Below are positions 2,315 through 20,850 of a stretch of DNA of 20,850 nucleotides, piece by piece. Position numbers and translations under genes: made by a program. Origin of the DNA: a virus. The notes below the pieces were generated by a model that had not been told where the DNA came from, did no database searches, and saw only the letters and a list, made by a program, of their open reading frames with translations. The DNA is taken from positions 1 to 20,850 of the IMG/VR virus record IMGVR_UViG_3300044647_001526; one strand, 5' to 3'. The first letter of the stretch is position 1; every line of letters begins with the position of its first letter.

Positions 2315-2640
2315 TGCCATACGCCAGTGGGAAACATGCTTGGGGTATTTCGGATCGCTCCGGCGTTCGGTACCGCCTGCGCGAAATGCGCAAGGAGTGG
2401 ACCGGGCTGCTCGTCGGACCGGACGAGTACGACCCCAAGCATCCGCAACTCTTCCCGCCAAAGGCCTATCCCGACCCGCAGGCGCTGCGCAATCCTCGCC
2501 CCGAGCAGGACTTGGTAGAGCAAAGAAGCGTCCAGTGGAGCTGGGACCCAGTCGGAGGCCCCCCGGACAACGGGATCAACCCTCCGAATAACCTGCAGGC
2601 CCAAGGCTCCGTTGGAATAGTTATGGTGGTGACCACATGA
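2314..2640 (+). CDS. Conserved phage structural-module protein (108 aa)
   Basis: The ATG at 2314 uses the last base of the preceding TGA (2312-2314). The 108-residue product starts MPYASGKHAWGISDRSG and contains YRLREMRKEWTGLLVGPDEYDPKHPQLFPP, which I recall from many uncultured aquatic phage genomes next to adaptor genes. The middle is Pro-, Asp- and Trp-rich with little predicted secondary structure, and the C-terminus (GSVGIVMVVTT) is a beta strand. The ending VMVVTT is echoed by VTVVTT in the small protein at 17872. No known function; a small linker or plug in the connector is possible. It overlaps the next gene by ATGA. Confidence 0.75.
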   Translation: MPYASGKHAWGISDRSGVRYRLREMRKEWTGLLVGPDEYDPKHPQLFPPKAYPDPQALRNPRPEQDLVEQRSVQWSWDPVGGPPDNGINPPNNLQAQGSVGIVMVVTT

Positions 2641-3284
2641 GCCTTACCTACGCCCAGTTGAAGCAGGCCATTCAGGACTATACGCAGAACACGGAAACGA
2701 CTTTCGTGAACAACCTGCCGCTGTTCATCCGGTTCTCGGAAGAGCGCATCCTGAAGACCGTGCAGCTTAGCCTGTTCCGCAAGAACGTGACCACGACGGC
2801 CACCACGGGCAACCAGTTTCTGGCTTGCCCGTCGGATTTCCTGGCCCCGTTGTCGCTGTCCTTCACGACCTCCGGAGACAAGGTCTTTGTAGATTTTAAG
2901 GATGTGACCTTTGCTCAAACCTACAACCCGGACCCGACAGATACGGCCCTGCCGCGTTACTATGCGCAGTTTGATGTGGACAACTTCATCCTCGCCCCCA
3001 CCCCGGCTGCGGCGTATGTAATGGAGTTGCATTACTTCTACCGCCCAGCCAGCATCACCGCCGGGGCTGAGAGCGGGACCACGTGGCTGAGCGACAATGC
3101 CGAACTGACGCTGCTTTACGGCGCGCTGGTAGAGGCGTACATTTTCATGAAGGGCGAGTCCGACATGATGGCGCTGTACGAGAAGCGCTTTGTCGAAAGC
3201 CTGACGGCGCTCAAGATGTTGGGCGAGGCGAAAGAAACAACTGACGAATACCGTAAGGGTATGGTCATAAGGGCTAAAGAATAA
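2637..3284 (+). CDS. Second head-tail adaptor-like structural protein (215 aa)
   Basis: The start ATG overlaps the preceding stop in ATGA (2637-2640). The product starts MSLTYAQLKQAIQDYTQNTE and continues with FIRFSEERILKTV, a beta-rich core with RYYAQFDVDNFILAPTP and YVMELHYFYRP, and a helical end (LYEKRFVESLTALKMLGEAK). That order, an N-terminal helix pair, a beta sheet and a C-terminal helix pair, resembles adaptor or tail tubular A-like proteins of short-tailed phages, and parallels the layout of the gene at 1649. Two adaptor-like proteins in one genome is normal in podovirus-like connectors. It is translationally coupled to the next gene (TAATG at 3282-3286). Exact family not certain. 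Confidence 0.75.
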   Translation: MSLTYAQLKQAIQDYTQNTETTFVNNLPLFIRFSEERILKTVQLSLFRKNVTTTATTGNQFLACPSDFLAPLSLSFTTSGDKVFVDFKDVTFAQTYNPDPTDTALPRYYAQFDVDNFILAPTPAAAYVMELHYFYRPASITAGAESGTTWLSDNAELTLLYGALVEAYIFMKGESDMMALYEKRFVESLTALKMLGEAKETTDEYRKGMVIRAKE

Positions 3285-3580
3285 TGGTCGGCGCAACACT
3301 AGAGCTTCCACGGGGCCTCCCTGTCGTAGGGGTCAAGACCACAAGCGGCCGGGGCATGACGCCCGAGGAGCTTGCGGAGATGTGCGCAGACAAGATCGTC
3401 TACGTCTCGGACACTGCACCCCCGGAGATTCGGGATCAGGCCCGGGCGTTCAAGTTGCAGGTGCAGAAGGTTGTCGAATCTTACTTGCAACAAGCTGTTC
3501 GCAGCGACCGAACAACAGTGTATAATGCGCTGACTGAGGCTGGGCACCCTGAGCTAGCCGATCTCATAAGGAGACTTTGA
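3284..3580 (+). CDS. Small hypothetical phage protein (98 aa)
   Basis: The ATG at 3284 overlaps the previous TAA by one base. The product has an extended N-terminus (VGATLELPRGLPVVGVKT) followed by helices (TPEELAEMCADKIVYV; EIRDQARAFKLQVQKVVESYL; RTTVYNALTEAG). It is soluble and charged, with no catalytic signature. The size and position between adaptor and virion genes are compatible with a small chaperone, connector subunit or decoration component. I do not recognise the family. The 3' end of the gene contains the AAGGAG that serves the next gene. Confidence 0.7.
   Translation: MVGATLELPRGLPVVGVKTTSGRGMTPEELAEMCADKIVYVSDTAPPEIRDQARAFKLQVQKVVESYLQQAVRSDRTTVYNALTEAGHPELADLIRRL
3568..3573 (+). 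promoter_or_regulatory. Ribosome-binding site for the gene at 3583
   Basis: AAGGAG lies nine bases before ATG 3583. It decides that ATG over the overlapping TTG at 3577. Confidence 0.8.
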
Positions 3581-3582
3581 CC

Positions 3583-4029
3583 ATGGCCTTCACGGGAAAT
3601 TTCATGGCGACTAGCTTCAAGCAGCAAATTCTTGAAGCCGTTCACGACTTCCGCCTAACTGGCGGCGACACCTTTAAGTTGGCGTTGTACACCAACTCGG
3701 CCTCGTTCACGGCGGCCACCACCGCCTACACCGCGTCGAACGAAGTTTCGGCTTCGGGTTCGTACTCGGCTGGCGGCGGTTCGTTGACCCGGATCGATCC
3801 GACAACTTCGGGGACGACTGCGTTCACCGACTTTGCCGACCTGACGTTCACCTCGGCTACGATCACGGCCCGCGGTGCGCTGATCTACAACTCGACGCCC
3901 ACCCACACCTACACCAATCCGGCGGTGGTTGTGCTCGATTTTGGAACGGACAAGACTTCGACGGCTGGCGATTTTACCATCGTCTTCCCTGCCGCGGATG
4001 CAAGTAACGCCCTGATTCGGATTGCCTAA
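3583..4029 (+). CDS. Conserved virion-type protein (148 aa)
   Basis: Translation begins at ATG 3583, behind a clear AAGGAG. The product starts MAFTGNFMATSFKQQIL and has a helix followed by repeated beta strands: GGDTFKLALYTNSASF, then a Ser/Thr/Gly-rich stretch with YSAGGGSLTRIDP, FADLTFTSATITARGALIYN, VVVLDFGTDKTSTAGDFTI and a final hydrophobic ALIRIA. I recall this pattern from a very common small structural protein of aquatic phages, usually found near tail-fibre genes. There is no enzyme motif or transmembrane segment. A minor virion, decoration or tail-tip role is inferred from context. Confidence 0.78.
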   Translation: MAFTGNFMATSFKQQILEAVHDFRLTGGDTFKLALYTNSASFTAATTAYTASNEVSASGSYSAGGGSLTRIDPTTSGTTAFTDFADLTFTSATITARGALIYNSTPTHTYTNPAVVVLDFGTDKTSTAGDFTIVFPAADASNALIRIA

Positions 4030-4032
4030 GAC

Positions 4033-4647
4033 ATGGTCGATGTCGTCGTCCCCTTCACCGGCTGGGGCCGAGCGGGGTTCGGCGAACTCGCTTGGGGTGA
4101 GGGCAGTCTTGCTGTCGGCTTTGCCACGGGCGAAGTCGGCACAGTTGCCGTTACGACGACAGCCAACATCTTGGTCGATGTTACGGGGGTCTTTGGGACG
4201 GGGGAGGTCGGAACTGCGACGGTCGAGGCGGATGCCAACGTCGTCGCGACAGGCGTCTTCGGAACCGGGCAGGTTGGCATCGTCACTGTTTCTGAGGGCG
4301 CGGGTGTCACTGTTGATGTCACTGGCGTCGAGGCTTTCGGGCAAGTCGGCACGGCGGGCGTTCAGGAGTCGGCCTCTGTCAACGTCACTGGAGTTGAGGC
4401 GACCGGGGCAGTTGGAACGGCCGACGTTTCCGGGAAAGCCCGGGTCATTGTCACTGGCGTCTCGGCTACGGGGGCAGTAGGAACTGCTGGCGTCTCCGGC
4501 GATGCCCGTGTCACAGTCATTGGTGTTTCTGCGACAGGGAGCGTCGGCGCGGTCAAGGTGTGGGGGCGTATTGTTCCAGACCCCGGAAACAGCTATACTC
4601 AGATCAGCCCGGCTCCCGGGTCGATCTGGACTGAAATCGCAGCGTAA
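4033..4647 (+). CDS. Gly/Val-rich tandem-repeat protein (204 aa)
   Basis: ATG 4033 follows the previous stop by three bases. After an N-terminal Trp-containing segment (MVDVVVPFTGWGRAGFGELAWG) come seven tandem units of 22-24 residues with consensus VTGVxATGxVGTAxVxxxAxV, roughly residues 27-177. A Trp-containing cap (QISPAPGSIWTEIA) ends the protein. Each unit gives two or three short beta strands with Gly turns, so a beta-solenoid or elongated shaft is likely. The sequence is not similar to known enzymes. Neighbours are virion and fibre-type proteins, so a fibre shaft or linker is the most reasonable role. A large antisense open frame across this region is a by-product of the composition. 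Confidence 0.75.
   Translation: MVDVVVPFTGWGRAGFGELAWGEGSLAVGFATGEVGTVAVTTTANILVDVTGVFGTGEVGTATVEADANVVATGVFGTGQVGIVTVSEGAGVTVDVTGVEAFGQVGTAGVQESASVNVTGVEATGAVGTADVSGKARVIVTGVSATGAVGTAGVSGDARVTVIGVSATGSVGAVKVWGRIVPDPGNSYTQISPAPGSIWTEIAA
4111..4560 (+). repeat. Seven imperfect tandem coding repeats of about 66-72 bp
   Basis: The coding repeats behind the VTGVxATGxVGT units recur about every 22-24 codons. The last three complete units are most alike, which suggests recent duplication; the first units are more diverged. Confidence 0.7.
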
Positions 4648-4656
4648 GGGAACGAG

Positions 4657-5460
4657 ATGGCCAGCACATACTCGAACAGTGGTATCGAGCTCATCACGAC
4701 CGGCGAACAGTCGGGCACGTGGGGCACGACGACCAATAATAACCTCCAGATCGTGGACCGGCTGATCAACGGCATCGGGACCATCACGCTCTCGGGGACG
4801 ACCCACACGCTAACCACTTCAGACGGCACGCTGTCAGATGGTCAGTACGGCGTGCTGGTGTTTGCAGGATCGCCGAGCGGAACGAACACTGTCACCATCG
4901 CACCCAACGATGCGCAGCACCTGTACATCGTCAAGAACAGCTCGGGCCAAAGCATTATTCTGACGCAGGGTTCCGGGGGCAACGTCACTGTAGCCAACGG
5001 CGACACGAAGATTGTGTACTGCGACGGCGCGGGCGCAGGGGCCGCGGTCGTAGACATCACGGCCGACTTCGCAATGTCGAGTGTGAACATCACCGGCGGC
5101 TCTGTTACTGGCATCACCGACCTCGCTGTTGCGGATGGCGGTACTGGGGCGTCGTCTGCATCTGCCGCGCGCACGAATCTTGGGCTTGGAACTGGAGACA
5201 GCCCGACGTTTACTGCGGTCACTGCTGGTCAGGTGGACATTACGGCGCAAGGAGACCTTCGTCTTCAAGACACCACGGGCGGAGAGTACGTTGCGCTTCA
5301 GGCCCCCGGCACTGTCTCTGCCAGCTACACTCTAACGCTCCCTGCAGCAGATGGCACAAGCGGGCAGGCTCTGGTAACAAACGGCTCCGGGACGCTTTCG
5401 TTTGCGGCGGCTGGAATTTCAACGGGCAAGGCAATCGCCATGGCCATCGTGTTCGGATAA
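4657..5460 (+). CDS. Tail-fibre-like protein (267 aa)
   Basis: ATG 4657 is preceded by an AAGGG-type ribosome-binding stretch. The N-terminus (MASTYSNSGIELITTGEQSGTWG) is followed by a beta-rich body of short strands and Gly/Thr/Ser turns, and near residues 158-177 by ADGGTGASSASAARTNLGLG. That last motif is typical of phage tail-fibre collar or shaft regions, where repeated GGTG-A-S--AR-NLGL segments trimerise. The C-terminus ends in GKAIAMAIVFG, a hydrophobic strand I recall from fibre proteins of aquatic phages. It would be a virion component taking part in host contact. No peptidase or depolymerase motif is visible. Confidence 0.78.
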   Translation: MASTYSNSGIELITTGEQSGTWGTTTNNNLQIVDRLINGIGTITLSGTTHTLTTSDGTLSDGQYGVLVFAGSPSGTNTVTIAPNDAQHLYIVKNSSGQSIILTQGSGGNVTVANGDTKIVYCDGAGAGAAVVDITADFAMSSVNITGGSVTGITDLAVADGGTGASSASAARTNLGLGTGDSPTFTAVTAGQVDITAQGDLRLQDTTGGEYVALQAPGTVSASYTLTLPAADGTSGQALVTNGSGTLSFAAAGISTGKAIAMAIVFG

Positions 5461-5471: not shown

Positions 5472-5846
5472 GTGGCAAACCCGAATATTGTTAACGTCAC
5501 CACGATCACTGGCAAGTCTGCCGTGGTCGATCTGACCACCACCAACGCAACGCTTGTCGTCGAAAATCCGGCAGCGTCCAACAAGGTCTTCAAGATCAAC
5601 TCGCTGATTGTCTCAAACGTGGACGGAACCAACGCCGCCGACATCACGGTCAGCTTATTTAGCGAGGACAACATCGGCGGCACGGCGACTCAGATCGTAA
5701 GCACCGTGAGCGTGCCTGCGGACGCCTCGCTGGTGGTTATCGACAAGAACACCTCAATCTATCTTGAGGAAGACAAGTCGATTGGCGCGACTGCGGGTTC
5801 CGCGAGCGACCTGAAGGTCGTAGTGAGCTATGAGGAAATTTCGTGA
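5472..5846 (+). CDS. Small conserved virion-type protein (124 aa)
   Basis: The start is GTG 5472 behind AAGGAGA. The product begins MANPNIVNVTTITGKSAVVDL and contains ASNKVFKINSLIVSNVDG, ADITVSLF, VPADASLVVIDKNTSIYLEE and a terminal VVVSYEEIS. It reads as an all-beta jelly-roll-like or sandwich domain. The pattern of KVFKINSLxVSNVDGTNAAD plus VPADxxLVVI and a C-terminal SYEEIS is one I recall from many aquatic phage genomes as a structural protein of unknown role. It sits between a fibre-like gene and the first propeller gene, so a tail-tip, fibre-associated or capsid-decoration role fits. Confidence 0.78.
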   Translation: MANPNIVNVTTITGKSAVVDLTTTNATLVVENPAASNKVFKINSLIVSNVDGTNAADITVSLFSEDNIGGTATQIVSTVSVPADASLVVIDKNTSIYLEEDKSIGATAGSASDLKVVVSYEEIS

Positions 5847-5861: not shown

Positions 5862-7256
5862 ATGGCTACGTCCCAAGGCGGCTACGTCAACGGCGGCTTT
5901 GACCTTCTGAAGGCCCCCGACGCCCCGACCATCACGTCTGTCACGAACGACATCGGAACCATGTCCGTGGCATTCACTGCGCCCGCCAACCCCGGCGGAA
6001 GCGCGGTCACGGGCTATACGGTCACGGCGGTCAACGAAAGCACCGGGGCATCCGTCGGCGCGACGGGGTCGGCGTCTCCGATTACTGTAGCCACGGGCGG
6101 GGGCACCTTTAAGGTTCGCACTGCGGCGGCCAACATTTATGGGCCGGGGCGGGTGTCTGCGTTTGATACGGGGAATGTGGTGTTCTCTGGGGCGGAGTTG
6201 TATGCGTGGGGTAATAACGGTAACGGTCGCCTCGGAGACAACACCACAGCAAACAAGTCAAGCCCGGTTCAAGTGGGCGCTTTAACAACTTGGCGTCAAG
6301 TTGCGGCAGGTTTGGCAGGCGGTGGTCACACCGCCTGCGTTAAGACAGATGGCACGCTCTTTACTTGGGGTCAAAACACCAACGGCCAACTTGGCGACGG
6401 CACCGTCATCGCCCGCTCCAGCCCTGTTCAGGTCGGCGCTCTTACGAACTGGTCTCAAGTAGCAGCGGGGGGCGGGATCACCGCCTGCGTTAAGACAGAC
6501 GGAACTCTTTTTACTTGGGGTCTCAACACCAGCGGCCAACTTGGCGACGGCACCGTCGCCGCCAAGTCCAGCCCTGTGCAGGTTGGAGCTTTGACTAACT
6601 GGGCGCAGGTTGCGGCAGGCGATGACCACACCACCTGCGTTAAGACAGACGGAACTCTTTTTACTTGGGGTTTGAACTCCAGCGGCGAACTTGGCGACGG
6701 CACCGCTGTTAACAAGTCTAGCCCTATTCAAGTTGGAGCTTTGACTAACTGGGCGCAGGTTTCATCTGGCAACAACCACACCGCCTGCGTTAAGACAGAC
6801 GGAACTCTTTTTACTTGGGGTTCCAACGGCGACGGCCAACTTGGCGACGGCACCGCTGTTAACAAGTCTAGCCCTATTCAAGTTGGAGCTTTGACTAACT
6901 GGACGCAGGTTTCGGCAGGCAGTAATCACACCGCCTGCGTTAAGACAGACGGAACTCTTTTTACTTGGGGCCGCAACGGCAACGGCCAACTTGGCGACGG
7001 CACCGTCATCGCCAAGTCCAGCCCTGTGCAGGTTGGAGCTTTGACTAACTGGGCGCAGGTTGCGGCAGGCGGTAGTGACACCGCCTGCGTTAAGACAGAC
7101 GGAACTCTTTTTACTTGGGGTCTCAACACCAGCGGCCAACTTGGCGACGGCACCGCTGTTAACAAGTCTAGCCCTATTCAAGTTGGAGCTTTGACTAACT
7201 GGGCGCAGGTTGCGGCAGGCAGTGTTCACACCACCGCCCTTTTTGGAGTAACCTAA
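5862..7256 (+). CDS. FN3 plus seven-bladed RCC1 beta-propeller protein (464 aa)
   Basis: The N-terminal part, residues about 18-108, looks like a fibronectin type III domain: AP-DAPTITSV, SVAFTAPANPGGSAVTGYTVTA and FKVRTAAANIYGPG match the FN3 strand pattern. From residue 113 there are seven RCC1-like repeats, beginning LYAWGNNGNGRLGD and then six copies of T(D)GTLFTWGxNxxGxLGDGT-xxx(K/R)SSP(V/I)QVGALTNW. A short final strand (HTTALFGV) pairs with the first blade, so the propeller closes exactly at seven blades. RCC1 folds serve as protein- or ligand-binding platforms; in phages such proteins occur with tail fibres. It is probably a virion adhesin or receptor-binding protein. It is directly abutted by a second propeller gene at 7257. 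The blades are almost identical at DNA level. Confidence 0.85.
   Translation: MATSQGGYVNGGFDLLKAPDAPTITSVTNDIGTMSVAFTAPANPGGSAVTGYTVTAVNESTGASVGATGSASPITVATGGGTFKVRTAAANIYGPGRVSAFDTGNVVFSGAELYAWGNNGNGRLGDNTTANKSSPVQVGALTTWRQVAAGLAGGGHTACVKTDGTLFTWGQNTNGQLGDGTVIARSSPVQVGALTNWSQVAAGGGITACVKTDGTLFTWGLNTSGQLGDGTVAAKSSPVQVGALTNWAQVAAGDDHTTCVKTDGTLFTWGLNSSGELGDGTAVNKSSPIQVGALTNWAQVSSGNNHTACVKTDGTLFTWGSNGDGQLGDGTAVNKSSPIQVGALTNWTQVSAGSNHTACVKTDGTLFTWGRNGNGQLGDGTVIAKSSPVQVGALTNWAQVAAGGSDTACVKTDGTLFTWGLNTSGQLGDGTAVNKSSPIQVGALTNWAQVAAGSVHTTALFGVT
6198..7253 (+). repeat. RCC1 blade array, exact 150-bp period
   Basis: A 37-base segment within the codons for CVKTDGTLFTWG is identical at 6484, 6634, 6784, 6934 and 7084, a strict 150-bp spacing, with a near copy at 6334. 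Differences between units cluster in short windows corresponding to loops. Confidence 0.92.
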
Positions 7257-8405
7257 ATGCCGAATTTCTCCGCAAAATGGGGCTTGATGGAGCAACTGCA
7301 GGCCGTGGCCGCAGGGACGTGGACGGGGTTGCCGCTGCCGCAGCTTTACGCTTGGGGGCTTAACACCAATGGCCGTCTCGGCGATAACACCATTGTTAAC
7401 AAGTCTAGCCCTGTTCAAATCGGAACGCTAACAAACTGGTATCAGGTTTCTGCGGGTAATGCCTTCAGCGCCTCTATCAAAACCGACGGAACTTTATGGT
7501 CGTGGGGCGTCAACACTAACGGTCGGCTTGGTGACGGCACAGTCATCGCTCGCTCCAGCCCTGTTCAACTTGGTTCACTGACTAACTGGTATCAGGTTTC
7601 TTCGGGGTACAGCCACGCCGCCTCTATTAAGACAAACGGGACGCTGTGGACTTGGGGGTACAATTACAACGGCCAGCTTGGTCAAAATGACCGCGTTTCT
7701 CGTTCTAGCCCCGTTCAAGTTGGTGCGCTGACAAACTGGCATCAGGTTTCTGCGGGTAATGCCTTCAACGCCTCTATCAAAACGGATGGTACTCTTTGGG
7801 CTTGGGGACACAATGATCGTGGGTCTCTCGGCCAAAACAATACCATCTACCGCTCCAGCCCTGTTCAGGTAGGGGCTTTGACAACGTGGAGCAAAGTCTC
7901 GGCCGGGGGGAGATTTGCTGCTGCTATAAAAACCGACGGAACTTTATGGTCGTGGGGGTATAACGGCGTTGGCGTACTAGGTGACGGCACCACCATCAAC
8001 CGCTCAAGCCCTGTTCAAATAGGGGCTTTGACAAACTGGGCGCAGGTTTCTTGTCCGAGCGCCGGAACTCACACTGCCGCACTCAAGACTGATGGTACGA
8101 TGTGGACTTGGGGGCGTAACAACTACGGCCAACTTGGCGACGGCACCATCATCAACCGCTCCAGCCCTGTTCAAATAGGGGCTTTGACAAACTGGTATCA
8201 GGTTTCTGCAGGCAATGGTCAAACTGCCTCTATCAAAACAGATGGAACATTGTGGACGTGGGGCAGCAACAACTACGGCCAAGTCGGCGACGGCACAGTC
8301 ATCGCTCGCTCCAGCCCTATCCAAGTTGGTGCGTTGACAAAGTGGAACCAAGTCTCGGCAGGTACAAGATTCATCGCCGCCATCTTCCAAGGTTCATCCA
8401 ACTAA
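7257..8405 (+). CDS. Second seven-bladed RCC1 beta-propeller protein (382 aa)
   Basis: The ATG at 7257 follows the previous TAA with no gap; GGAG about eight bases upstream can serve as ribosome-binding site. The first 29 residues ([20 protein letters not shown], then TWTGLPLP) form a short anchor unlike the FN3 domain of its neighbour. Seven RCC1 repeats follow from residue 30: [14 protein letters not shown], then LWSWG, LWTWG, LWAWG, LWSWG, MWTWG and LWTWG blades. A closing strand (FIAAIFQG) ends it. One blade has a two-residue insertion ([17 protein letters not shown]), so its spacing is 156 rather than 150 bp. The blades use Trp where the upstream paralogue uses Phe (LWTWG against LFTWG). 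A virion surface or receptor-binding role is inferred from context. It overlaps the next gene as TAATG. Confidence 0.85.
7344..8393 (+). repeat. RCC1 blade array of second propeller gene
   Basis: Seven blade-coding units recur about every 150 bp, with one 156-bp unit near 8050. Segments such as those coding for IARSSPVQ are shared almost exactly with the upstream gene, indicating exchange or a recent common source. Confidence 0.88.
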
Positions 8406-10225
8406 TGCCCCAGAAAACCTTCCACTTCCTCGCAGGCCTCCCCCGCTCCGGCAGCACGGTACTTGCTGCCCTCTTGAACCAGCATCCTGACCTCCACGCC
8501 AGCCCCACCAGCGGCATGGGCGAGGTGATGTTCAACACCTTCAAGGCGTGGCAGGGTAGCTCGGCGGAGCAGGCGGCACCGGACGAAGACCAGATCAAGG
8601 CCGTGCTGCGCGGCATCATGGATGCCAAGTACGCCAAGGTGGAAAAGCCTGTCGTGATCGACAAGGCGCGGAACTGGGCCGAGGTTTCAAGCCTGCGGGT
8701 GCTGCACGAACTTCTGGGCCGAAAGCCGAAGATCATCGCCACCGTTCGCAACATCGACGACTGCGCGGCATCCTTCGTGCGCGTGGCGAAGCCCAACGAC
8801 GTTGAGGATTTTCTCCGCAACAGTGACCTGATCGACCACCTCAAGAAGTCCTATCAGGTGCTTCTCACGGGCTTCAACTACGACCAGTCCTGCTTCCTCT
8901 TTGTTGAGTACGAAGACCTGATCGCCGACCCCAAGAAGCAACTCGCCCGCATCCACGAGTTTCTTGAGATCGGCGACTTCGACTACGACTTCAACCACCT
9001 CGACGAGCATGCCCCCAAGGAGCGCGACGAGGAAATCTGGCAGGTGCCGGGCCTGCACACGGTGGCACCGAAGCTGGCCAAGCGCCACAACGAAGACTCC
9101 GCCGACGTGCTGCAGCACATGCGCCAGAACTTTGTGCAGCCCTGCTTCTGGCGCGAAAAGCCGCTGACGACCGAGATGATCCACCCGCTCGACATGCAGT
9201 TGGCCGCCGGGATCATTGGCGACTTCAAGCGCGGCGAGGAGATTGCTCAGGAGCTGGCGATCAAGGAGCCGAAGAACCATCGCGCGGCCTTCAATCGCGG
9301 CTGGTACGAGATGCGGAAGGGCCACCTGCTGGACGGCATGATGCTGCTTGAGCGTGGCCGGATTGAAAAGGTTTTCGGCAACGAGGCACCTAAAGTGCCG
9401 ACGCCGCTTTGGGATGGGGTATCGACGGGCACGATCCTGTTGAACTTGGAGGCTGGCCTCGGCGATCAAATACATGGCGTCCGCTATGCGCGCGAGTTGA
9501 AGAAGCGCGGCAATCAGGTCATCGTGGCCTGCTCCGGCGCGCTGGCGATGACCATGCGCAAGGTTGATGGCGTGGACATGGTCATCCAGCACGAGGCTGC
9601 TTTCGGCGTCGTGCATGACTTCTGGGTGCCCAGCATGACGGCCAGCATCCCGCTGGGCTGGCAGTACAAGCACATCGACGGGTCGGCCTACATCCCGAAG
9701 CCAGATGTAGCTAAGGGCGACAAGTTTCGGATCGGCCTGCGCTGGCAGGGCAACCCCGAGTTTGAGCATCAGCAGCATCGGCTGTTCCCGGCGCAGTATC
9801 TGTTCAACGCGGTCAAGGGGCTGGATGTTGAGTACGTCAGCCTGCAGCGCGACGAGGGCGCGGAGCACAGGCCCGCGTGGGTCAGGGAGCTGCCTTTGGC
9901 GCACTGGGAAGACACCCGGCAGGCTATCGCTTCCTGCGATCTTGTGGTATCGTCTTGCACATCAGTTTCCCACATGTCGGCTGCAATGGGTATACCGACA
10001 TGGATTGTCACGCCCGTGCTTCCGTATTATCTTTGGGCAAAGCCGGGGAACACGACGGAGTGGTACGACAGCGTGCGGCTGTTCCGTCAAACTGGACACG
10101 GGGACTGGGTGACGGTCTTTGGAGAATTGAAAAAGGAGTTGCTCTATGCCTACGAAAACGGGCTACTGGATTCGCGTCAAAAACGGCCAAGTCAAAGACG
10201 TTTGGGATTACAAGCCGTCGGCTGA
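8405..10225 (+). CDS. Sulfotransferase-TPR-GT9 (heptosyltransferase-like) fusion (606 aa)
   Basis: ATG 8405 shares a base with the previous TAA; the frame is open upstream only through the propeller gene. Residues about 5-255 form a PAPS-dependent sulfotransferase: the 5'-phosphosulfate loop GLPRSGST at 11-18 and a 3'-phosphate motif TVRNIDDCAASF at 113-124, then EYEDLIADP. Residues about 263-325 look like a TPR helix pair (AFNRGWYEMRKGHLLDGMMLLERG). Residues about 342-580 match the GT9/heptosyltransferase-like domain of bacterial TPR-glycosyltransferases: ILLNLEAGLGDQIHG, RIGLRWQGNPEFEHQQHR, CDLVVSSCTSVSHMSAAMG, then SVRLFRQTGHGDW. It could transfer a sugar and sulfate to a shared glycan. 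Its last 26 codons overlap the next gene in another frame. Substrates cannot be read from sequence. Confidence 0.85.
   Translation: MPQKTFHFLAGLPRSGSTVLAALLNQHPDLHASPTSGMGEVMFNTFKAWQGSSAEQAAPDEDQIKAVLRGIMDAKYAKVEKPVVIDKARNWAEVSSLRVLHELLGRKPKIIATVRNIDDCAASFVRVAKPNDVEDFLRNSDLIDHLKKSYQVLLTGFNYDQSCFLFVEYEDLIADPKKQLARIHEFLEIGDFDYDFNHLDEHAPKERDEEIWQVPGLHTVAPKLAKRHNEDSADVLQHMRQNFVQPCFWREKPLTTEMIHPLDMQLAAGIIGDFKRGEEIAQELAIKEPKNHRAAFNRGWYEMRKGHLLDGMMLLERGRIEKVFGNEAPKVPTPLWDGVSTGTILLNLEAGLGDQIHGVRYARELKKRGNQVIVACSGALAMTMRKVDGVDMVIQHEAAFGVVHDFWVPSMTASIPLGWQYKHIDGSAYIPKPDVAKGDKFRIGLRWQGNPEFEHQQHRLFPAQYLFNAVKGLDVEYVSLQRDEGAEHRPAWVRELPLAHWEDTRQAIASCDLVVSSCTSVSHMSAAMGIPTWIVTPVLPYYLWAKPGNTTEWYDSVRLFRQTGHGDWVTVFGELKKELLYAYENGLLDSRQKRPSQRRLGLQAVG
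10133..10138 (+). promoter_or_regulatory. Ribosome-binding site for the overlapping gene at 10146
   Basis: AAGGAG lies inside the 3' end of the fusion gene, seven bases before ATG 10146, supporting that start despite the 80-base overlap. Confidence 0.75.
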
Positions 10226-10583: not shown

Positions 10584-11822
10584 ATGAGCGACCGCTTTCC
10601 CGGTGGCGTAATCAGCAAGACACCGCCCACGGTCGTCGCACCCGTTGACGGCGAGGGCGGTTCCGCGTCTGGCGTTTGGACGCTGGCGGAGCAGCTTGGG
10701 TTGCAAAAGGCGGGCGTGTGGCCGCAAAAGGTTTTGCCTCGAGAGCTTTATGCTTGGGGTAAAAACACTAACGGCGCGGTTGGTGATAATACAACCATTA
10801 ACCGCTCTAGTCCGGTACAGGTTGGAGCGTTAGTTAATTGGAAACAGGTTTCCGTTGGATACAGCTTTTCAGGCTCTGTGAAAACAGACAACTCACTTTG
10901 GATGTGGGGTAACAACGGTAGTCGCCAACTCGGCCAAAACAACGCCATCTATCGATCAAGCCCCGTTCAGGTTGGGGCGCTGACTAACTGGAAGCAGCTT
11001 GCTCTTGGGCCTACCTCTTCGGCATGTGTAAAAACGGACAATACGCTTTGGACGTGGGGCGGCAACAGCTCTGGCCAGCTTGCTCAAAATAACACAACCG
11101 TCCTATCCAGCCCCGTTCAGGTCGGCACGTTAGCTAATTGGAATCAGGTGTCTTCTACCCAAGGCGGTTCTGGAGGCTGCGCAGCGGTAAAAACAGACGG
11201 CACTCTTTGGACGTGGGGCGACAATGGGTATGGCAGGCTTGGAACTAATCAGAGTGCCGCAACTAGAAATAGTGCTTCTAGCCCTGTGCAGGTTGGTGGC
11301 TTAACAACATGGCAACAAGTTTCCTGTGGAAGTCAGCACACCGTCGCTATCACAACAGCCGGGGCGCTTTATGCGTGGGGGCGAAACGACGACGGCCAAC
11401 TCGGCCAAAACAGCACCCTCAATCGATCAAGCCCCGTTCAGGTTGGAGCACTCACAACTTGGTCATATGTTGGTGGAGGGGGTAGGCACACCGCTGCCAT
11501 TAAAACAGACGGAACCCTTTGGACGTGGGGTCGAAATCAGTTTGGTGAAGGCGGTTTAAACATCGACACTGCCAAGTCCAGTCCAACGCAAGTGGGCGTC
11601 CTTACAAATTGGACGGTTGTTTCAGCGGGATATCGAAACACTGCTGCCATTAAATCCGATGGAACTCTTTGGTCGTGGGGTGAAAACGATTCTAGTCTGG
11701 GCGCTGTTGGTGACGGAACAACCATTGATCGTTCCAGCCCAGTTCAAATTGGGTCTTTGACAACTTGGTCTAATGTGGGAGTCGGATTTGGTGGTACGCT
11801 TGCAATTACTAAAGACCCATAA
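10584..11822 (+). CDS. Third seven-bladed RCC1 beta-propeller protein (412 aa)
   Basis: Residues 1-54 form a short N-terminal module (MSDRFPGGVISKTPP, then ASGVWTLAEQLGLQKAGVWP) of a kind I recall as an anchor in several unrelated phage virion proteins. From residue 55 there are seven RCC1 blades: LYAWGKNTNG, LWMWGNNGSR, LWTWGGNSSG, LWTWGDNGYG, LYAWGRNDDG, LWTWGRNQFG and LWSWGENDSS. A closing strand (GGTLAITKDP) completes the ring. Blades are more diverged from each other than in the gene at 5862, with insertions in blades 3, 4 and 7. The GC content drops sharply at the anchor-propeller junction, as if the propeller were a separately acquired module. It is probably a virion adhesin paralogous to the two upstream propellers. 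Confidence 0.83.
   Translation: MSDRFPGGVISKTPPTVVAPVDGEGGSASGVWTLAEQLGLQKAGVWPQKVLPRELYAWGKNTNGAVGDNTTINRSSPVQVGALVNWKQVSVGYSFSGSVKTDNSLWMWGNNGSRQLGQNNAIYRSSPVQVGALTNWKQLALGPTSSACVKTDNTLWTWGGNSSGQLAQNNTTVLSSPVQVGTLANWNQVSSTQGGSGGCAAVKTDGTLWTWGDNGYGRLGTNQSAATRNSASSPVQVGGLTTWQQVSCGSQHTVAITTAGALYAWGRNDDGQLGQNSTLNRSSPVQVGALTTWSYVGGGGRHTAAIKTDGTLWTWGRNQFGEGGLNIDTAKSSPTQVGVLTNWTVVSAGYRNTAAIKSDGTLWSWGENDSSLGAVGDGTTIDRSSPVQIGSLTTWSNVGVGFGGTLAITKDP
10746..11819 (+). repeat. RCC1 blade array of third propeller gene
   Basis: Seven coding repeats of about 150 bp, with longer units near 11140-11300 and 11680-11720. It is less regular and more diverged than the arrays at 6198 and 7344. Confidence 0.85.
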
Positions 11823-12518: not shown

Positions 12519-13087
12519 ACTTTTCTGTCGTCTTCCATGACCACACCAAGGCGACGCTCTCACGCATCTTCAATAAAGTCCTGATCCCGAACACCGTCAT
12601 TGAGATCGGCGTCTTTGAGGGCGAGACCACCTTCAACCTGACCAGCCTGCTCCGAGGTTCGGGGGCCTACCGCCACTACGCCATCGACCCGTTCGCGGCA
12701 TCAGAGAACCTCACCGACACCACGGTGGCCTCGGCCCGCGATGTCTTCACCAGCTTCCTGCCCGAGTTCCCCGAAGTCGAACACATCGACAAGCCCTCGC
12801 TGGATGGGCTGATTGAACTCAAACAGCGCGGCGTCGTTGCCGACTTGATCTACGTCGATGGCTCACACTTCGCCAAGGATGTCCTTCTTGATGCAGCTCT
12901 GGGGTTCGAACTCCTGCGCGTGGGCGGCGTCATGGTCTTCGACGATGCGGTCAGCTGGCGGTACGGCGAGAGCATCCACGACAGCCCGAAGCAGGCCGTT
13001 GACGCCTTCATCGCCTGCAACTGGAACCGCCTGAAGGTTCTGGAAGCGCCCGGCGGCTACCAAGTGGCGATCCAGCGGACATGCTAA
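12515..13087 (+). CDS. Class I SAM-dependent methyltransferase (190 aa)
   Basis: GTG 12515 overlaps the preceding stop (GTGA). A Rossmann-type methyltransferase core is visible: motif I VIEIGVFEGETTFNL at residues 28-42, an acidic strand end AIDPFA at 56-61, the post-motif strand DLIYVDGSHFAKDV at 110-123, and LLRVGGVMVFDDAVSW at 133-148. The DGSH and FDD pair is typical of the Methyltransf_24-type family often found in sugar and LPS gene clusters. The substrate may be a sugar hydroxyl, which fits the surrounding glycosyltransferases and heptose genes, but this cannot be read from sequence. Its final seven bases overlap the next gene. Confidence 0.8.
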   Translation: MNFSVVFHDHTKATLSRIFNKVLIPNTVIEIGVFEGETTFNLTSLLRGSGAYRHYAIDPFAASENLTDTTVASARDVFTSFLPEFPEVEHIDKPSLDGLIELKQRGVVADLIYVDGSHFAKDVLLDAALGFELLRVGGVMVFDDAVSWRYGESIHDSPKQAVDAFIACNWNRLKVLEAPGGYQVAIQRTC

Positions 13088-13608
13088 TCTTCACCAACGG
13101 CTGCTTTGATATCCTGCACGTCGGCCACATCCGATACCTGCAGGCGTCAAAAGCGCTCGGCACGAGGCTGGTCGTCGGCCTGAACTCTGACGCATCCGTC
13201 CGACGGATCAAGGGCCCAGATCGTCCAATCAATTCCCAAGAGGATCGGGCCGAGGTTCTGCGGGCGCTGGCCTGCGTTGACGAGGTCGTGATCTTCAACG
13301 AGGACACGCCCTACGAGCTGATCAAAAGCCTGCGTCCTGACGTCATCACCAAGGGCGGCGACTATGCCGAAGAAGATGTTGTCGGAAGAGGCTTGGCAAA
13401 GGTTGTGATAATCCCCTATACTGTCAACAAGTCGACAACAAGGATTATCGAACATGCGCGTGGAGAAGGGCTGGGGGCACGAGGAAATCTTTGCCTCGAC
13501 GGAGACCTACTGTGGGAAATTTCTGTGCTTCGAGCAGGACAAGAAGTTCTCGATGCACTTCCATGTCGACAAGGACGAGACGTGGTACGTCCTGCAGGGC
13601 GTCTTTGA
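13081..13608 (+). CDS. rfaE2: D-glycero-beta-D-manno-heptose 1-phosphate adenylyltransferase (RfaE2/HldE C-domain type)
   Basis: The enzyme would join heptose 1-phosphate with ATP to form ADP-heptose. Residues 1-128 match the C-terminal domain of HldE closely: TNGCFDILHVGHIRYL with the catalytic HxGH at 13-16, VVGLNSDASVRRIKG, RPINSQEDRAEVLRAL, NEDTPYELI, LRPDVITKGGDY at 84-95, and KSTTRIIE at 117-124. In E. coli this domain is fused to a kinase; here the kinase is a separate gene two genes downstream. The enzyme core ends about residue 128, yet the frame continues for about 45 more residues of unfamiliar, Arg/Leu-rich sequence. That extension overlaps 155 bases of the cupin gene and looks like a read-through tail. 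The start ATG overlaps the preceding stop. Confidence 0.88.
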   Translation: MLIFTNGCFDILHVGHIRYLQASKALGTRLVVGLNSDASVRRIKGPDRPINSQEDRAEVLRALACVDEVVIFNEDTPYELIKSLRPDVITKGGDYAEEDVVGRGLAKVVIIPYTVNKSTTRIIEHARGEGLGARGNLCLDGDLLWEISVLRAGQEVLDALPCRQGRDVVRPAGRL

Positions 13609-13801
13609 GCTAACGACCATTGATACGGCGACGGCCACGTATTCCTCGCGTAGGCTCTACCCCCAAGACACGTGGCGCAACCGTCCGCTCCTGCCCCACC
13701 AGTTGCACTGCATCTCTGGTCCGGGCGTCATCATCGAAGTCTCAAGCCGGGACACGGCCGCCGACAACTACCGCGTCTTGTCGGGAGACAGCCAGACATG
13801 A
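13454..13801 (+). CDS. Small cupin (mannose-6-phosphate isomerase type II-like, 115 aa)
   Basis: Starts MRVEKGWGHEEIFASTE. A single cupin barrel is evident: YCGKFLCFEQDKKFSMHFHVDKDETWYVLQG with metal-ligand candidates H35, H37 and E42, then PLLPHQLHCISG with H82. GWGHE near the start and the H-x-H-5x-E pattern resemble the sugar-phosphate isomerase cupins at the C-terminus of ManC-type enzymes; small stand-alone relatives occur in phages. It could bind or isomerise a sugar phosphate or nucleotide sugar for the neighbouring heptose enzymes, but a non-enzymatic binding role is also possible. It overlaps the upstream gene by 155 bases in another frame and the downstream kinase gene by ATGA. Confidence 0.82.
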   Translation: MRVEKGWGHEEIFASTETYCGKFLCFEQDKKFSMHFHVDKDETWYVLQGVFELTTIDTATATYSSRRLYPQDTWRNRPLLPHQLHCISGPGVIIEVSSRDTAADNYRVLSGDSQT

Positions 13802-14511
13802 TGGTTCTTGTCATAGGCGACGTCTGCGAAGACATCTACGTCTACGGCACGACGGAGCGGAAGAACCCAGAAGCGGGGGCCACGCTCCTGCAGCAGACGG
13901 GGACGCGCCGCTCTCTTGGTATGGCGGCCAACGTGGCCGAGAACCTCCGCGCCTTTTGCGATGTGGTGAGCCACTTCCCTAACGAACCGTATTCGAAGAA
14001 GATGCGGTTCTACGGCGAAGATGGCGTGACTCAGCTCTTGCGGGTTGACCAAGACGTCCGGAGCAAGCCTTACCAACTCTCGTCCCCAGAGTATTACGCC
14101 AAGTTCGACGCTATCGTGGTGTCGGACTACGACAAGGGCTTCATCACCCAAGACAACCTCTACGGCCTGATCCAGCGGTACAAAGGTCCGATGTTCGTGG
14201 ACACCAAGAAGACGGACCTGAAGCCCCTGTCCGGCCCCACCTACAAGATTAACAGCCTTGAGCACGGCAAGCTCAAGAGCGAGCCTGACGATCTGGTCGT
14301 GACCTGCGGGGCGGGCGGATGCTGGTACAAGGGCGAGAACTACCCTGCACCGAAGATTGACGTGGTCGATGTGTGCGGGGCAGGAGACACCTTCTTAGCC
14401 GCGCTGGCCTACCACCGCACGGAGTACAAGGACATGGCCGGGGCGCTCAGCGCCGCCAACTACTACGCCGCCATAGCCTGTAGCCGTCCGGGCGTCTATG
14501 CGGTGAAATGA
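13798..14511 (+). CDS. rfaE1: PfkB-family heptose 7-phosphate kinase-like protein (RfaE1/HldE N-domain type, 237 aa)
   Basis: ATG 13798 gives an ATGA overlap with the cupin stop; upstream frame is open only through the cupin gene. The sequence follows the HldE kinase domain: VLVIGDVCEDIYVYG, NPEAGATLL, SLGMAANVAENL, QLLRVDQD, FDAIVVSDYDKGFIT, FVDTKKTDLKPLSGPTYKIN, VVTCGAGGCWYKG, then the PfkB signature VVDVCGAGDTFLAAL with the catalytic Asp in GAGD. It would phosphorylate D-glycero-D-manno-heptose 7-phosphate at C1. It is short (237 against roughly 310-320 residues), missing parts of the N-terminal lid region and of the segment after the IN motif. The substrate is inferred from similarity to HldE and from neighbours; another sugar kinase activity is possible. 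Confidence 0.8.
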   Translation: MMVLVIGDVCEDIYVYGTTERKNPEAGATLLQQTGTRRSLGMAANVAENLRAFCDVVSHFPNEPYSKKMRFYGEDGVTQLLRVDQDVRSKPYQLSSPEYYAKFDAIVVSDYDKGFITQDNLYGLIQRYKGPMFVDTKKTDLKPLSGPTYKINSLEHGKLKSEPDDLVVTCGAGGCWYKGENYPAPKIDVVDVCGAGDTFLAALAYHRTEYKDMAGALSAANYYAAIACSRPGVYAVK

Positions 14512-14921
14512 TCATGAAACTTGTCGGTTTCACGGCGTCCGCCTTTGACATGCTGCACGCGGGGCACATTGCCATGCTCGAAGAGGCCGCGTCCCTGTGT
14601 GACGTGCTTGTCTGCGCGCTGCACGTCGATCCAAGCCTTGAGCGGCCGGAGAAGTCAAAACCTCTCCAGCCCCTTTCCGAGCGGTACATCCAGCTCAGTG
14701 CGGTAAGACATGTAGCCCGCATCATCCCATACCAGACCGAGGCAGAGCTTGAGCGGCTGATTGCGCTCCTCTGCCCAACGGTCCGCATCATCGGCGAAGA
14801 GTACGAAGGCAAGGACTTCACTGGCAAAGAGCTATGCGCGAGACTCGGTGTGCTGATACACTACAACCGCCGCCGCCATGACCTGTCCTCCACCCTGCAG
14901 CGGAGCCGGGTTTCTCGTTGA
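14508..14921 (+). CDS. Glycerol-3-phosphate cytidylyltransferase-like nucleotidyltransferase (137 aa)
   Basis: The start at 14508 overlaps the kinase stop by ATGA; ATG 14514 is an alternative. Cytidylyltransferase motifs are clear: GFTASAFDMLHAGHIAMLEEA with HAGH at residues 17-20, VDPSLERPEKSKPLQP, SERYIQLSAVRHV at 58-69, and TVRIIGEEYEGKDFTG at 91-106. The C-terminal RRRHDLSST stands where the SSTx motif of the family occurs. It may make a CDP- or other nucleotide-activated alcohol or sugar. It is the second nucleotidyltransferase of this fold in four genes, but is clearly different from RfaE2 (SERYIQL rather than the KSTT and KGGDY pattern). Substrate unknown. Confidence 0.8.
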   Translation: MIMKLVGFTASAFDMLHAGHIAMLEEAASLCDVLVCALHVDPSLERPEKSKPLQPLSERYIQLSAVRHVARIIPYQTEAELERLIALLCPTVRIIGEEYEGKDFTGKELCARLGVLIHYNRRRHDLSSTLQRSRVSR

Positions 14922-15199
14922 GGTACGTCGTTGACATCGACGGTACAATCTGTACCCAGACAGCGAGCTCCTACCCAGAAGCCCAACCGCATGCCGACCG
15001 GATTGCCAAGATCAACGCGCTCTATGATCAGGGTTGCGAGATCATCTACTGGACCGCCCGGGGCATGTCGTCTGGCACCGACTGGTCCGAGCTGACGAAA
15101 AGGCAACTGGACCAGTGGGGCTGTAAGTACCACCACCTTTGGATGGGAAAACCCTCATACGACATATGGGTGGACGACAAAGCTCAATGGCTATTCTGA
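14918..15199 (+). CDS. Small HAD-superfamily phosphatase (93 aa)
   Basis: The likely start is TTG 14918 in a TTGA overlap with the previous stop; no ATG lies nearby in frame. The HAD motifs are present: YVVDIDGTIC (motif I, Asp6 and Asp8), IIYWTARG (motif II, Thr46), MGKPSYD (Lys78) and IWVDDKAQ (motif IV, Asp86 and Asp87). With 93 residues it is a minimal, nearly capless member, much shorter than GmhB (about 190 residues). Between kinase and epimerase genes, it is a reasonable candidate for the heptose-1,7-bisphosphate phosphatase step, but similarity to GmhB itself is not visible. It overlaps the next gene by 13 bases. Confidence 0.78.
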   Translation: MRYVVDIDGTICTQTASSYPEAQPHADRIAKINALYDQGCEIIYWTARGMSSGTDWSELTKRQLDQWGCKYHHLWMGKPSYDIWVDDKAQWLF

Positions 15200-15948
15200 T
15201 CACCGGACATCGCGGCTTCATCGGCCAGAATATGATGAAGGCCCTCGGACCTCGGGCCGTTGGCCATGAGTGGGGAGACGGCGAGCCCAACCTCGACGGC
15301 ATCGAGCGGGTCATCCACCTTGGCGCAATCAGCAGTACGGCCTGCCGGGACTGGGACGCGCTTCTTGAGCAGAACGTCGTATCTTCCGTGCGTCTCCTGT
15401 CGGCCTGCGATGAGCGTGGCATCCCCATCCAGATTGCTTCCTCGGCGGCCGTTTACGGACCAAAGGCCTCAACCTTTGTCGAGACGGACAAGCCCAACCC
15501 ACGAAACCCCTACGCCCTGTCAAAATTTATTGTCGAGAAATACGTTGAGCGTCATGCGTGGACTATGCCTGTCCAGCTCTTTCGGTACTTCAACGTCTAC
15601 GGTCCGCACGAGGGCCACAAGGATCAGCCCTCACCACACAGTCTTTTCCGCAGGCAGGCCGCCTCCGGAGTGATCGAGGTCTTTGAGGGAAGCGAGAACT
15701 TTTGTAGGGATTTTGTCCCAGTTGAAACCGTCATCGATATCCACCTGCGTTTCTTTGACCTATCCTGCTCAGGCGTGTACAATGTCGGAACCGGAGCGAC
15801 CTCGTCGTTCATGGACGTGGCTCGGCAGGTTGCTTCGGAGACCGGGGCAGAGATCAAAGAGGTGCCGATGCCCGCGCAGTTGAGACGGAACTACCAGCCC
15901 TACACACGGGCTGACATGACAAAAACGCGCAGCGCCCTGAAGGTTTAA
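15187..15948 (+). CDS. hldD: ADP-L-glycero-D-manno-heptose 6-epimerase-like (HldD, 253 aa)
   Basis: ATG 15187 gives MAILITGHRGFIGQN with the NAD(P)-binding GxxGxxG. Further features match HldD/RfaD specifically: VIHLGAISST at 42-51 (HldD has a similar HEGACSST), the SSA and YALSK catalytic set (S85-86, Y109, K113), RYFNVYGPHEGHK at 133-145, VFEGSENFCRDFV at 165-177, GVYNVGTGATSSF at 196-208 and YQPYTRADMT at 236-245. The reaction would convert ADP-D-glycero-D-manno-heptose to the L-glycero form. It is shorter than the about 310-residue bacterial enzyme: around 30 residues are missing after the first helix and the C-terminal helices are absent. Start overlaps the HAD gene by 13 bases. It is the last sugar gene before the tail genes resume. 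Confidence 0.88.
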   Translation: MAILITGHRGFIGQNMMKALGPRAVGHEWGDGEPNLDGIERVIHLGAISSTACRDWDALLEQNVVSSVRLLSACDERGIPIQIASSAAVYGPKASTFVETDKPNPRNPYALSKFIVEKYVERHAWTMPVQLFRYFNVYGPHEGHKDQPSPHSLFRRQAASGVIEVFEGSENFCRDFVPVETVIDIHLRFFDLSCSGVYNVGTGATSSFMDVARQVASETGAEIKEVPMPAQLRRNYQPYTRADMTKTRSALKV

Positions 15949-19982: not shown

Positions 19983-20850
19983 ATGTCAGGTGTCTACAAC
20001 CGTAAGCTCTTTCGTCAAAGCGGCGCTCGCGACGAGCTTCGCAAGATGGGCGGGATCATGTCCAGCTCCGAGGAGCTGATGCGCGAGGCCCTGATGACCG
20101 GGATGCAGGCTCCGGGGCCCGCGGACCTTGGACCTATGGCCATGCCGCGGCAGCAGCCGATGGGGATGCCTGCGCCTCCGGTTATGCAGCCGCAGCAACC
20201 GATGATGCAGCAACCGATGGCTCCCATGCCGATGGACATGGGGATGCAGCAACCGATGGCCCCCATGCCGATGGACATGGGGATGCAGCAACCGATGATG
20301 CAGCAACCGATGATGCAGCCGCAGCAGCCAATGATGCAGCAACCGATGGCGGAGCCTGCCTTCATGCCGCCGGGGATGCCGCAGTCTGCGCAGATGCCGA
20401 TGCAGCCCGTTGGTTTCAACGAGGGCGGCCCAATTATCGTAGGGGCGGGAACTAAGTTTCCACGCGTGGTTGACATCACCCAGCAGGCTGGCACCGTTGT
20501 CGAAGCTCCGAAGGTCAGCCCTGACGCTCTTGCTACCGCAGAGAAGCTGGCGGGGGAAGTTGACGACAGAGACCCGGAAGAGGTTGGTCCGGAGATTGTT
20601 GACGCCGCAACAAAGGACGGCTTTGAGCCAACCGGAGATACTAAAACAGACCTTGCAAATATCTACGCTCAGTTGACTGGTGACCTTTCAGCCTACGAGA
20701 AGAACATTGACGAGCTCAACCGCGGCATCATTGGTGCGGCGATTGGGGCTGGGACCTCCGCACGTGCTACTGAGAATATCTCGAAAGGCCTTCTCGTGGG
20801 TCTCGAAGGTGCGAGAGCAACTGAAGAGCGCCGGGCTGGCGATGCTCGGG
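19983..20850 (+). CDS. Met/Gln/Pro-rich repeat protein, 5' part (3' end outside window)
   Basis: ATG 19983 follows the previous stop by one base, and the frame stays open to the window edge (289 codons visible). The N-terminus (MSGVYNRKLFRQSGARDELRKMGG) precedes residues about 48-140 made almost only of Met, Gln and Pro (MQPQQPMMQQPM and MAPMPMDMG units). After VGFNEGGPIIVGAG comes an acidic, helical region (EKLAGEVDDRDPEEVG; DLANIYAQLTGDLSAYEKNID) and a Gly/Ala-rich segment (GIIGAAIGAGTSA). It is probably another structural or ejection-type protein of the tail module. The low-complexity centre is likely disordered or forms an extended linker. Function unknown. Confidence 0.72.
   Translation, partial: MSGVYNRKLFRQSGARDELRKMGGIMSSSEELMREALMTGMQAPGPADLGPMAMPRQQPMGMPAPPVMQPQQPMMQQPMAPMPMDMGMQQPMAPMPMDMGMQQPMMQQPMMQPQQPMMQQPMAEPAFMPPGMPQSAQMPMQPVGFNEGGPIIVGAGTKFPRVVDITQQAGTVVEAPKVSPDALATAEKLAGEVDDRDPEEVGPEIVDAATKDGFEPTGDTKTDLANIYAQLTGDLSAYEKNIDELNRGIIGAAIGAGTSARATENISKGLLVGLEGARATEERRAGDAR
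20205..20350 (+). repeat. Low-complexity tandem repeats coding Met/Gln/Pro units
   Basis: Two 39-bp units (20205-20243 and 20244-20282) differ by one base. They are followed by several 15-bp units coding for M-Q-Q-P-M variants up to about 20350. Confidence 0.85.

Follow-up and report, generated by a model that had tools for sequence, protein, structure and literature searches.

Whole-propeller alleles at linked RCC1 genes in the tail region of an uncultured phage

Introduction

Many phages encode RCC1 proteins, one jumbo coliphage as many as eleven, and these proteins are filed under DNA metabolism. Mass spectrometry has found such proteins in virus particles: coliphage W70 virions contain RCC1 proteins belonging to phrog_4219 (PMC11370258), and GAP32 virions contain an RCC1-like structural protein (PMC5259590). 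In published work, the function of phage RCC1 proteins is called unknown or is guessed to be DNA ordering (PMC7247149), an idea that was put forward by the phAPEC6 authors (PMC7247149) and repeated by the W70 authors (PMC11370258).

Other work has described how phages diversify and how propellers grow. Islands of low metaviromic recruitment in marine phages are enriched in host-recognition genes (PMC3909814), and tail fiber modules are shared between Alteromonas phages (PMC10579305). In addition, recently amplified beta-propellers are widespread, RCC1/BLIP-II proteins and a few viral members included (Pereira and Lupas 2022, PMC9218822). Here, we describe A, B, and C, three RCC1 propeller genes that an uncultured phage carries in its tail region. 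A first-pass annotation of the same DNA had drawn attention to exact 150-bp repeats in gene A and had proposed a constant scaffold with variable loops, diversified by duplication, recombination, or selection.

Results

The DNA that we analyzed, hereafter the window, is a stretch of 20,850 nt from an IMG/VR virus record. Gene A (5862-7256) is followed directly by gene B (7257-8405), then by a sulfotransferase-domain gene (8405-10225) and gene C (10584-11822), all on the plus strand. The 464-aa product of gene A consists of an FN3-like anchor, A_N (5862-6197), and a seven-bladed RCC1 propeller (6198-7253) with TWG or AWG motifs at 6204, 6363, 6513, 6663, 6813, 6963, and 7113. It belongs to the RCC1 family, matching PF00415 over seven stretches (E 8.4e-93) with 305 bits against a curated cut-off of 21.7. 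Residues 19-94 of A_N gave phmmer matches to titin domains, and A_N alone had no Pfam match. Genes B (PF00415, E 3e-80) and C (E 1.8e-62) have shorter anchors of about 28 and 55 aa, respectively, ahead of propellers (7341-8402 in B and 10749-11819 in C) that form the second and third allelic positions. Each of the three genes has seven RCC1 repeats, and all match phrog_4219 in PHROGs. The sulfotransferase-domain protein between B and C has 606 aa (PF13469, E 2.4e-19); its long C-terminal part gave no Pfam match.

The RCC1 interval is bounded by a plus-strand gene for a tail stabilization-like virion protein (15950-17869; phrog_3287, E 7e-66). Neighboring genes match phage structural families, namely, phrog_2941 and phrog_3287 (both virion structural) and phrog_4287 (DNA ejection), and there are weak tail fiber matches at 4657-5460. 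The virion protein at 15950-17869 is only about 42% identical to those of the closest annotated phages, from which we conclude that the window represents an uncultured phage group; the same protein is 96% identical in amino acids in a sister contig, L073.

Several other features of the window were recorded. Positions 13081-15948 hold a gene run that resembles the ADP-heptose pathway, with matches mostly below curated cut-offs: adenylyltransferase domains like HldE part II (TIGR02199, E 1.5e-52 and 1e-19), an HldE part I-like kinase domain, a small HAD phosphatase, and an HldD-like epimerase (TIGR02197, E 1.4e-57). Judged from these resemblances, the phage may be able to change host surface sugars. 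A 66-nt tandem repeat (4384-4527, 2.2 copies) lies inside a gene (4033-4647) that likewise varies from phage to phage. Short tandem repeats of 39, 21, 15, and 12 nt occur near the end of the window (20204-20349), and their plus strand is rich in Gln, Met, and Pro codons. Antisense open reading frames over the gene A repeat (e.g., 6282-6731 and 6762-7418, minus strand) were dismissed as by-products of the repeat.

Between phages, the fast-evolving unit is the whole propeller, which is swapped as a discrete cassette, rather than isolated loops. We distinguished 21 alleles of A in 37 contigs, 19 of B in 32, and 11 of C in 12. When A propellers were compared at the DNA level, 282 pairs were 50-75% identical and 18 pairs were 99-100% identical; for B, 229 pairs fell at 50-70%, one at 85-90%, and 23 at 99-100%. 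The distribution is bimodal with almost nothing intermediate, in a sample of a few dozen contigs whose geographic independence is uncertain. The few intermediate cases were the B propellers of two contigs at 90% and the C propellers of three contigs at 95%. Within the allele table, every allele was restricted to one of the three positions.

The replacement of propellers is most apparent among close relatives. In seven contigs that are 94-100% identical over the region corresponding to 2637-5460, the A and B propellers were either about 100% or only 54-65% identical. One of these comparisons separates the two positions cleanly: G012 shares its B, not its A, with G020, G016, and G018, and these three share their A, not their B, with G017 and G019. 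The combinations seen were A1B1, A1B2, A13B1, A8B1, A7B2, A5B3, and A6B3, of which A1B1, A1B2, A7B2, and A6B3 recurred, in two contigs each, under different IMG/VR sample numbers. A and B therefore are exchanged and reassort independently. Swapping of propellers on near-identical DNA is as expected for the part of a protein that recognizes the host.

While the propellers were replaced between near-identical phages, the anchor and flanks were conserved. Relative to the window, the DNA of contig L169 was 89% identical in the A anchor, 67% in the A propeller, 94% in the B anchor, 64% in the B propeller, 96% in the sulfotransferase gene, and 61% in the C propeller. Identity thus changes abruptly at the borders of gene parts, with sharp boundaries against the anchors and the sulfotransferase gene. 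More generally, A_N DNA was 87-93% identical to that of relatives whose propellers were 60-69% identical, anchor identities varying slightly between our two comparisons, which used different programs and stretches. For most relatives, pS was about 0.2 in the A anchor and 0-0.1 in the B anchor. The sulfotransferase protein was 80-99% identical in amino acids to relatives that hold the whole gene and whose other genes differ far more, and pS in the first part of the gene was about 0.17 in most pairs. Likewise, L073 was 91% identical in DNA over 9 kb downstream, but its A, B, and C proteins were only 59%, 66%, and 54% identical to those of the window.

Between the A and B propellers lies a nearly invariant stretch of ~75 nt. 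The junction (7245-7328, plus strand) consists of GGAGTAACC-TAA followed by the first 72 nt of B, and the string GGAGTAACC-TAA-ATGCCGAATTTC...GACGGGG was letter-identical in most of the phages compared, many of them with unrelated propellers. The junction is a candidate recombination handle and would be the natural place for homologous recombination, but the ribosome site of B probably lies in it too, along with the B anchor.

The RCC1 genes occupy the fiber interval, among genes for tail or other virion structures. In relatives of the phage backbone that lack RCC1, about 5 kb of tail fiber- or adhesin-like genes (phrog_18345, 24898, 8745, YadA_head, and the SGL propeller) lie between the homologues of 3577-4029 and 4033-4647. 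In RCC1 phages nothing occupies this site (7-32 nt in most), and their RCC1 cassette sits within the 9.4-10.1 kb between 5846 and the stabilization protein in contigs holding both ends. The opposite arrangement was found in 18 loci without RCC1. Mutual exclusion is incomplete, however, because in 15 other non-RCC1 loci the first site is short as well and the second is unmeasurable. In one contig of 10,499 nt (L147), 5.9 kb without RCC1 separate the homologue of 5472-5846 from the stabilization gene.

Within gene A, the 37-mer CCTGCGTTAAGACAGACGGAACTCTTTTTACTTGGGG occurs exactly five times on the plus strand (6484-6520, 6634-6670, 6784-6820, 6934-6970, and 7084-7120). This exact match count bears out the five identical copies at 150-bp spacing reported in the first-pass annotation, whose lists of loop residues were also correct. 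Tandem Repeats Finder returned a 150-nt period over 6306-7232 (6.2 copies, score 1194) and an additional higher period of 450 nt. The description of the repeats as exact holds for the 37-mer; elsewhere, adjacent 300-nt registers are 82-91% identical, blade 1 has three extra codons, and blade 2 has many synonymous differences from other blades. Similarly, most amino acid changes do fall in the three windows that had been named, yet "confined" was too strong, as changes also occur at blade columns 9, 22, 31, 34, 35, and 41. The second window (AVNK versus VIA or VAA) is a linked block with synonymous changes that is common to blades 4, 5, and 7. Among 76 phage RCC1 proteins, window A ranked third in blade-to-blade DNA identity (mean 0.80 versus a median of 0.59), and its repeat pattern therefore exceeds chance.

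Gene A is present letter for letter in two other IMG/VR contigs, and the array is therefore not a one-off assembly artifact. There were zero differences across gene A in the three contigs of this allele; along the 8 kb that one of them, L010, has in common with the window, 13 synonymous changes were the sole differences. With the gene identical in other contigs and the L010 changes elsewhere, we see no sign of active hypermutation of the loops; between phages, no loop-level hypervariation was found. All 13 differences cluster within 260 nt of the sulfotransferase gene (8557-8815), near the end of the overlap and outside A and B, a pattern that suggests a recombination edge or a strain switch.

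An AlphaFold2 model of the gene A product, built with 15 relatives, had a mean pLDDT of 87.7 and a pTM of 0.82. In VIA-align, the model matched HERC2 RLD2 with a Z of 53.6 and an rmsd of 1.5 over 351 residues; other matches were UVR8 (Z about 51), RCC1 (about 50), and BLIP-II (32). The product is thus predicted to have a seven-bladed RCC1 fold. DSSP placed the strands of each blade at columns 18-23, 30-35, 39-44, and 49-3. Because the loops of an up-and-down blade emerge alternately on its two sides, columns 4-17 and 36-38 should share one face, with columns 24-29 and 45-48 opposite, an assignment that follows strand order in the predicted model and not coordinates.

By this assignment, variable positions map to one face of the predicted structure. 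Mean entropy was higher on the first face than on the second by 0.81 bits in window A (permutation P = 0.003), by 0.91 across blades of other phage proteins (P = 0.015), and by 0.77 within single phage proteins (P = 0.002). The contrast was absent from RCC1 loci in 21 cellular contigs (-0.08, P = 0.57; within proteins, 0.29, P = 0.16), an imperfect control in that phage-derived patterns served to find the loci and a phage-built model to align them. These more distant loci came from a genome scan with B; a scan with the A alignment found no relatives in cellular genomes. Window A and about 580 blades of other phage proteins vary at similar columns (Spearman 0.72), and in those blades the three windows are again the most variable columns. 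Together with the one-face location, this agreement supports the constant scaffold and variable surface that had been proposed. The opposite-face loops and strand 4 (RSSPVQ) are nearly constant in phage blades, but not in cellular blades.

Six of the seven blades of window A have their nearest relative within the same protein. A long block is identical in blades 4, 5, and 7, while the grouping of the blades changes in other segments; in a pairwise-incompatibility permutation test, mosaicism was supported at P = 0.010, or at P = 0.024 when blade 2 was left out. Such relationships within one protein, combined with mosaic segments, indicate that the window's A allele arose by recent blade amplification with mixing of segments. 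There were no exact shared words of at least 26 nt between the window A propeller and any other protein, including B and C, and on this basis we rejected blade exchange with other propellers. Both duplication and recombination, two of the suggested sources of diversity, are visible, the first as blade amplification and the second as allele swaps and mosaicism.

Variation in blade number had been raised as well, but the count is essentially fixed: nearly all of 77 distinct proteins have 7, 14, 21, or close to 28 blades, and we rejected such variation as a general mechanism. Since other proteins carry 14 or 21 blades, multiples of seven seem to be preferred. One A gene (L026, 4754-5996) has six very uniform blades, reflecting either a true deletion or a collapsed assembly. 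A protein of 1,408 aa (L014, 2598-6821) carries about 29 RCC1 blades and is identical in three contigs.

Selection, the third suggested source, fared less well. Between alleles, pN/pS of the propellers was 0.3-0.45 with synonymous sites near saturation (pS 0.62-0.82), values that preclude a claim of positive selection. In window A, the one-face loops of blades 3-7 had a pN/pS of 1.22, compared with 0.39 elsewhere. Few events underlie this ratio, so it fits relaxed constraint as well as diversifying selection.

Discussion

We consider it likely that A, B, and C are virion-attached host-recognition adhesins whose propellers are exchanged by recombination. The conserved N-terminal anchor would join the tail, while the seven-bladed propeller would show its one variable face to the cell surface. 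Attachment to the virion is suggested by gene position and by the published proteomics of other phages, and the propellers would be the parts that bind receptors. We infer homologous recombination as the mechanism of exchange, with whole propellers moving between conserved anchors. Exchange is independent at A and B, and for this reason different combinations appear on nearly identical phages. New alleles would come partly from blade amplification or conversion inside one propeller, and the window's A is a recent product of this kind, with its 37-nt core common to five copies and its other segments mosaic. The blade number would return to seven because a propeller must close.

Alternatively, the propellers might have no special role, having undergone ordinary recent blade amplification after which loops diverged most for being least constrained. 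Widespread recently amplified propellers, RCC1/BLIP-II included, speak for this account, as does a loop pN/pS of about 1, which fits relaxed constraint; loop columns are also more variable in cellular RCC1 (3.0 versus 1.8 bits). It explains the repeats within the gene well and, as an account of how one allele arose, is compatible with the adhesin reading, but it leaves unexplained both the discrete swapped alleles and the conserved opposite-face loops that cellular blades lack. As a full explanation, we find it improbable. We give still less credence to the view that RCC1 proteins organize or condense phage DNA, in the head or after injection. PHROGs files these families under DNA metabolism, and such a role was proposed in the phAPEC6 paper (PMC7247149) and repeated in the W70 paper (PMC11370258). 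Furthermore, the basic propellers of B and C (pI 9.8 and 9.2) would suit nucleic acid binding, and DNA binding cannot be dismissed on charge. However, the A propeller is acidic (pI 6.2), and condensation gives no reason for swapped alleles on a nearly identical background, for a location in the fiber interval, or for variation on one face.

Two further explanations concern the source of the variation. Assembly could have joined co-occurring strains through the repeats, creating chimeric A/B combinations. Some contigs do end inside propellers (e.g., L009 and L013), a sign of assembly trouble there, yet the same combinations recur across different sample numbers, contigs that share an allele match in it at 99-100% across about 1 kb, and no exact match of at least 26 nt joins the window A propeller to unrelated alleles, making chimerism very unlikely. 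A diversity-generating retroelement acting on the loops is hardly credible. Asparagine AAC codons do occur in one variable window, and phage receptor-binding proteins are common targets of these elements (PMC10743442). We rejected this mechanism because nine related contigs, the longest 51-57 kb and others fragments, contained no reverse transcriptase and the variable sites showed no adenine specificity (A in 18 of 39 state pairs among blades 3-7); the identity of gene A across its three contigs also speaks against it.

An extension of the adhesin reading, for and against which we see equal odds, is combinatorial recognition, in which three linked, position-specific propellers are swapped independently of one another via near-invariant handles, while blade amplification within the locus creates new propellers that keep a count of seven. 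If so, a phage population would hold many A x B x C combinations, and RCC1 would be a general phage adhesin scaffold rather than a DNA-condensing protein. The allele pattern points to host recognition instead of DNA metabolism, which makes the question directly testable. In addition, these propellers, with one face kept constant and the other variable, are a natural collection in which to study the rise of new binding specificity in repeat proteins.

Gene A shares its fold, its seven blades, and the WG...GQLG motif with the RCC1/BLIP-II superfamily (PF00415; UVR8, HERC2 RLDs, RCC1, and BLIP-II). It differs from the superfamily in that it has no eukaryotic partner context, carries an FN3-like anchor, and has unusually uniform blades; the comparison with eukaryotic RCC1 itself (RanGEF, chromatin binding) covered the fold. 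The third variable window of A aligns with the Trp-Arg of the GWRHT repeats of UVR8, residues that serve in photoreception and at the dimer interface (PMC5108777). The Trp triad of UVR8 is absent from A, whose columns 37-39 read GGH, GGI, DDH, NNH, SNH, GSD, and SVH.

Among phages, the closest counterparts are the RCC1 proteins of W70, GAP32, and phAPEC6, which likewise occur in several copies per genome, and the W70 PHROG is common to A, B, and C; allele exchange is not reported in the available portions of those papers. As in the propellers surveyed by Pereira and Lupas (PMC9218822), near-identical blades reflect recent amplification, but that survey found many altered blade numbers, whereas here seven is kept and the gene is an exchanged phage cassette. 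Finally, the locus resembles hypervariable fiber and receptor-binding protein modules, in which near-identical phages keep a conserved N-terminal part and replace the receptor-binding part (PMC3909814 and PMC10579305). It departs from those modules in that the exchanged unit is an RCC1 propeller, present at three linked positions, of which A and B reassort separately.
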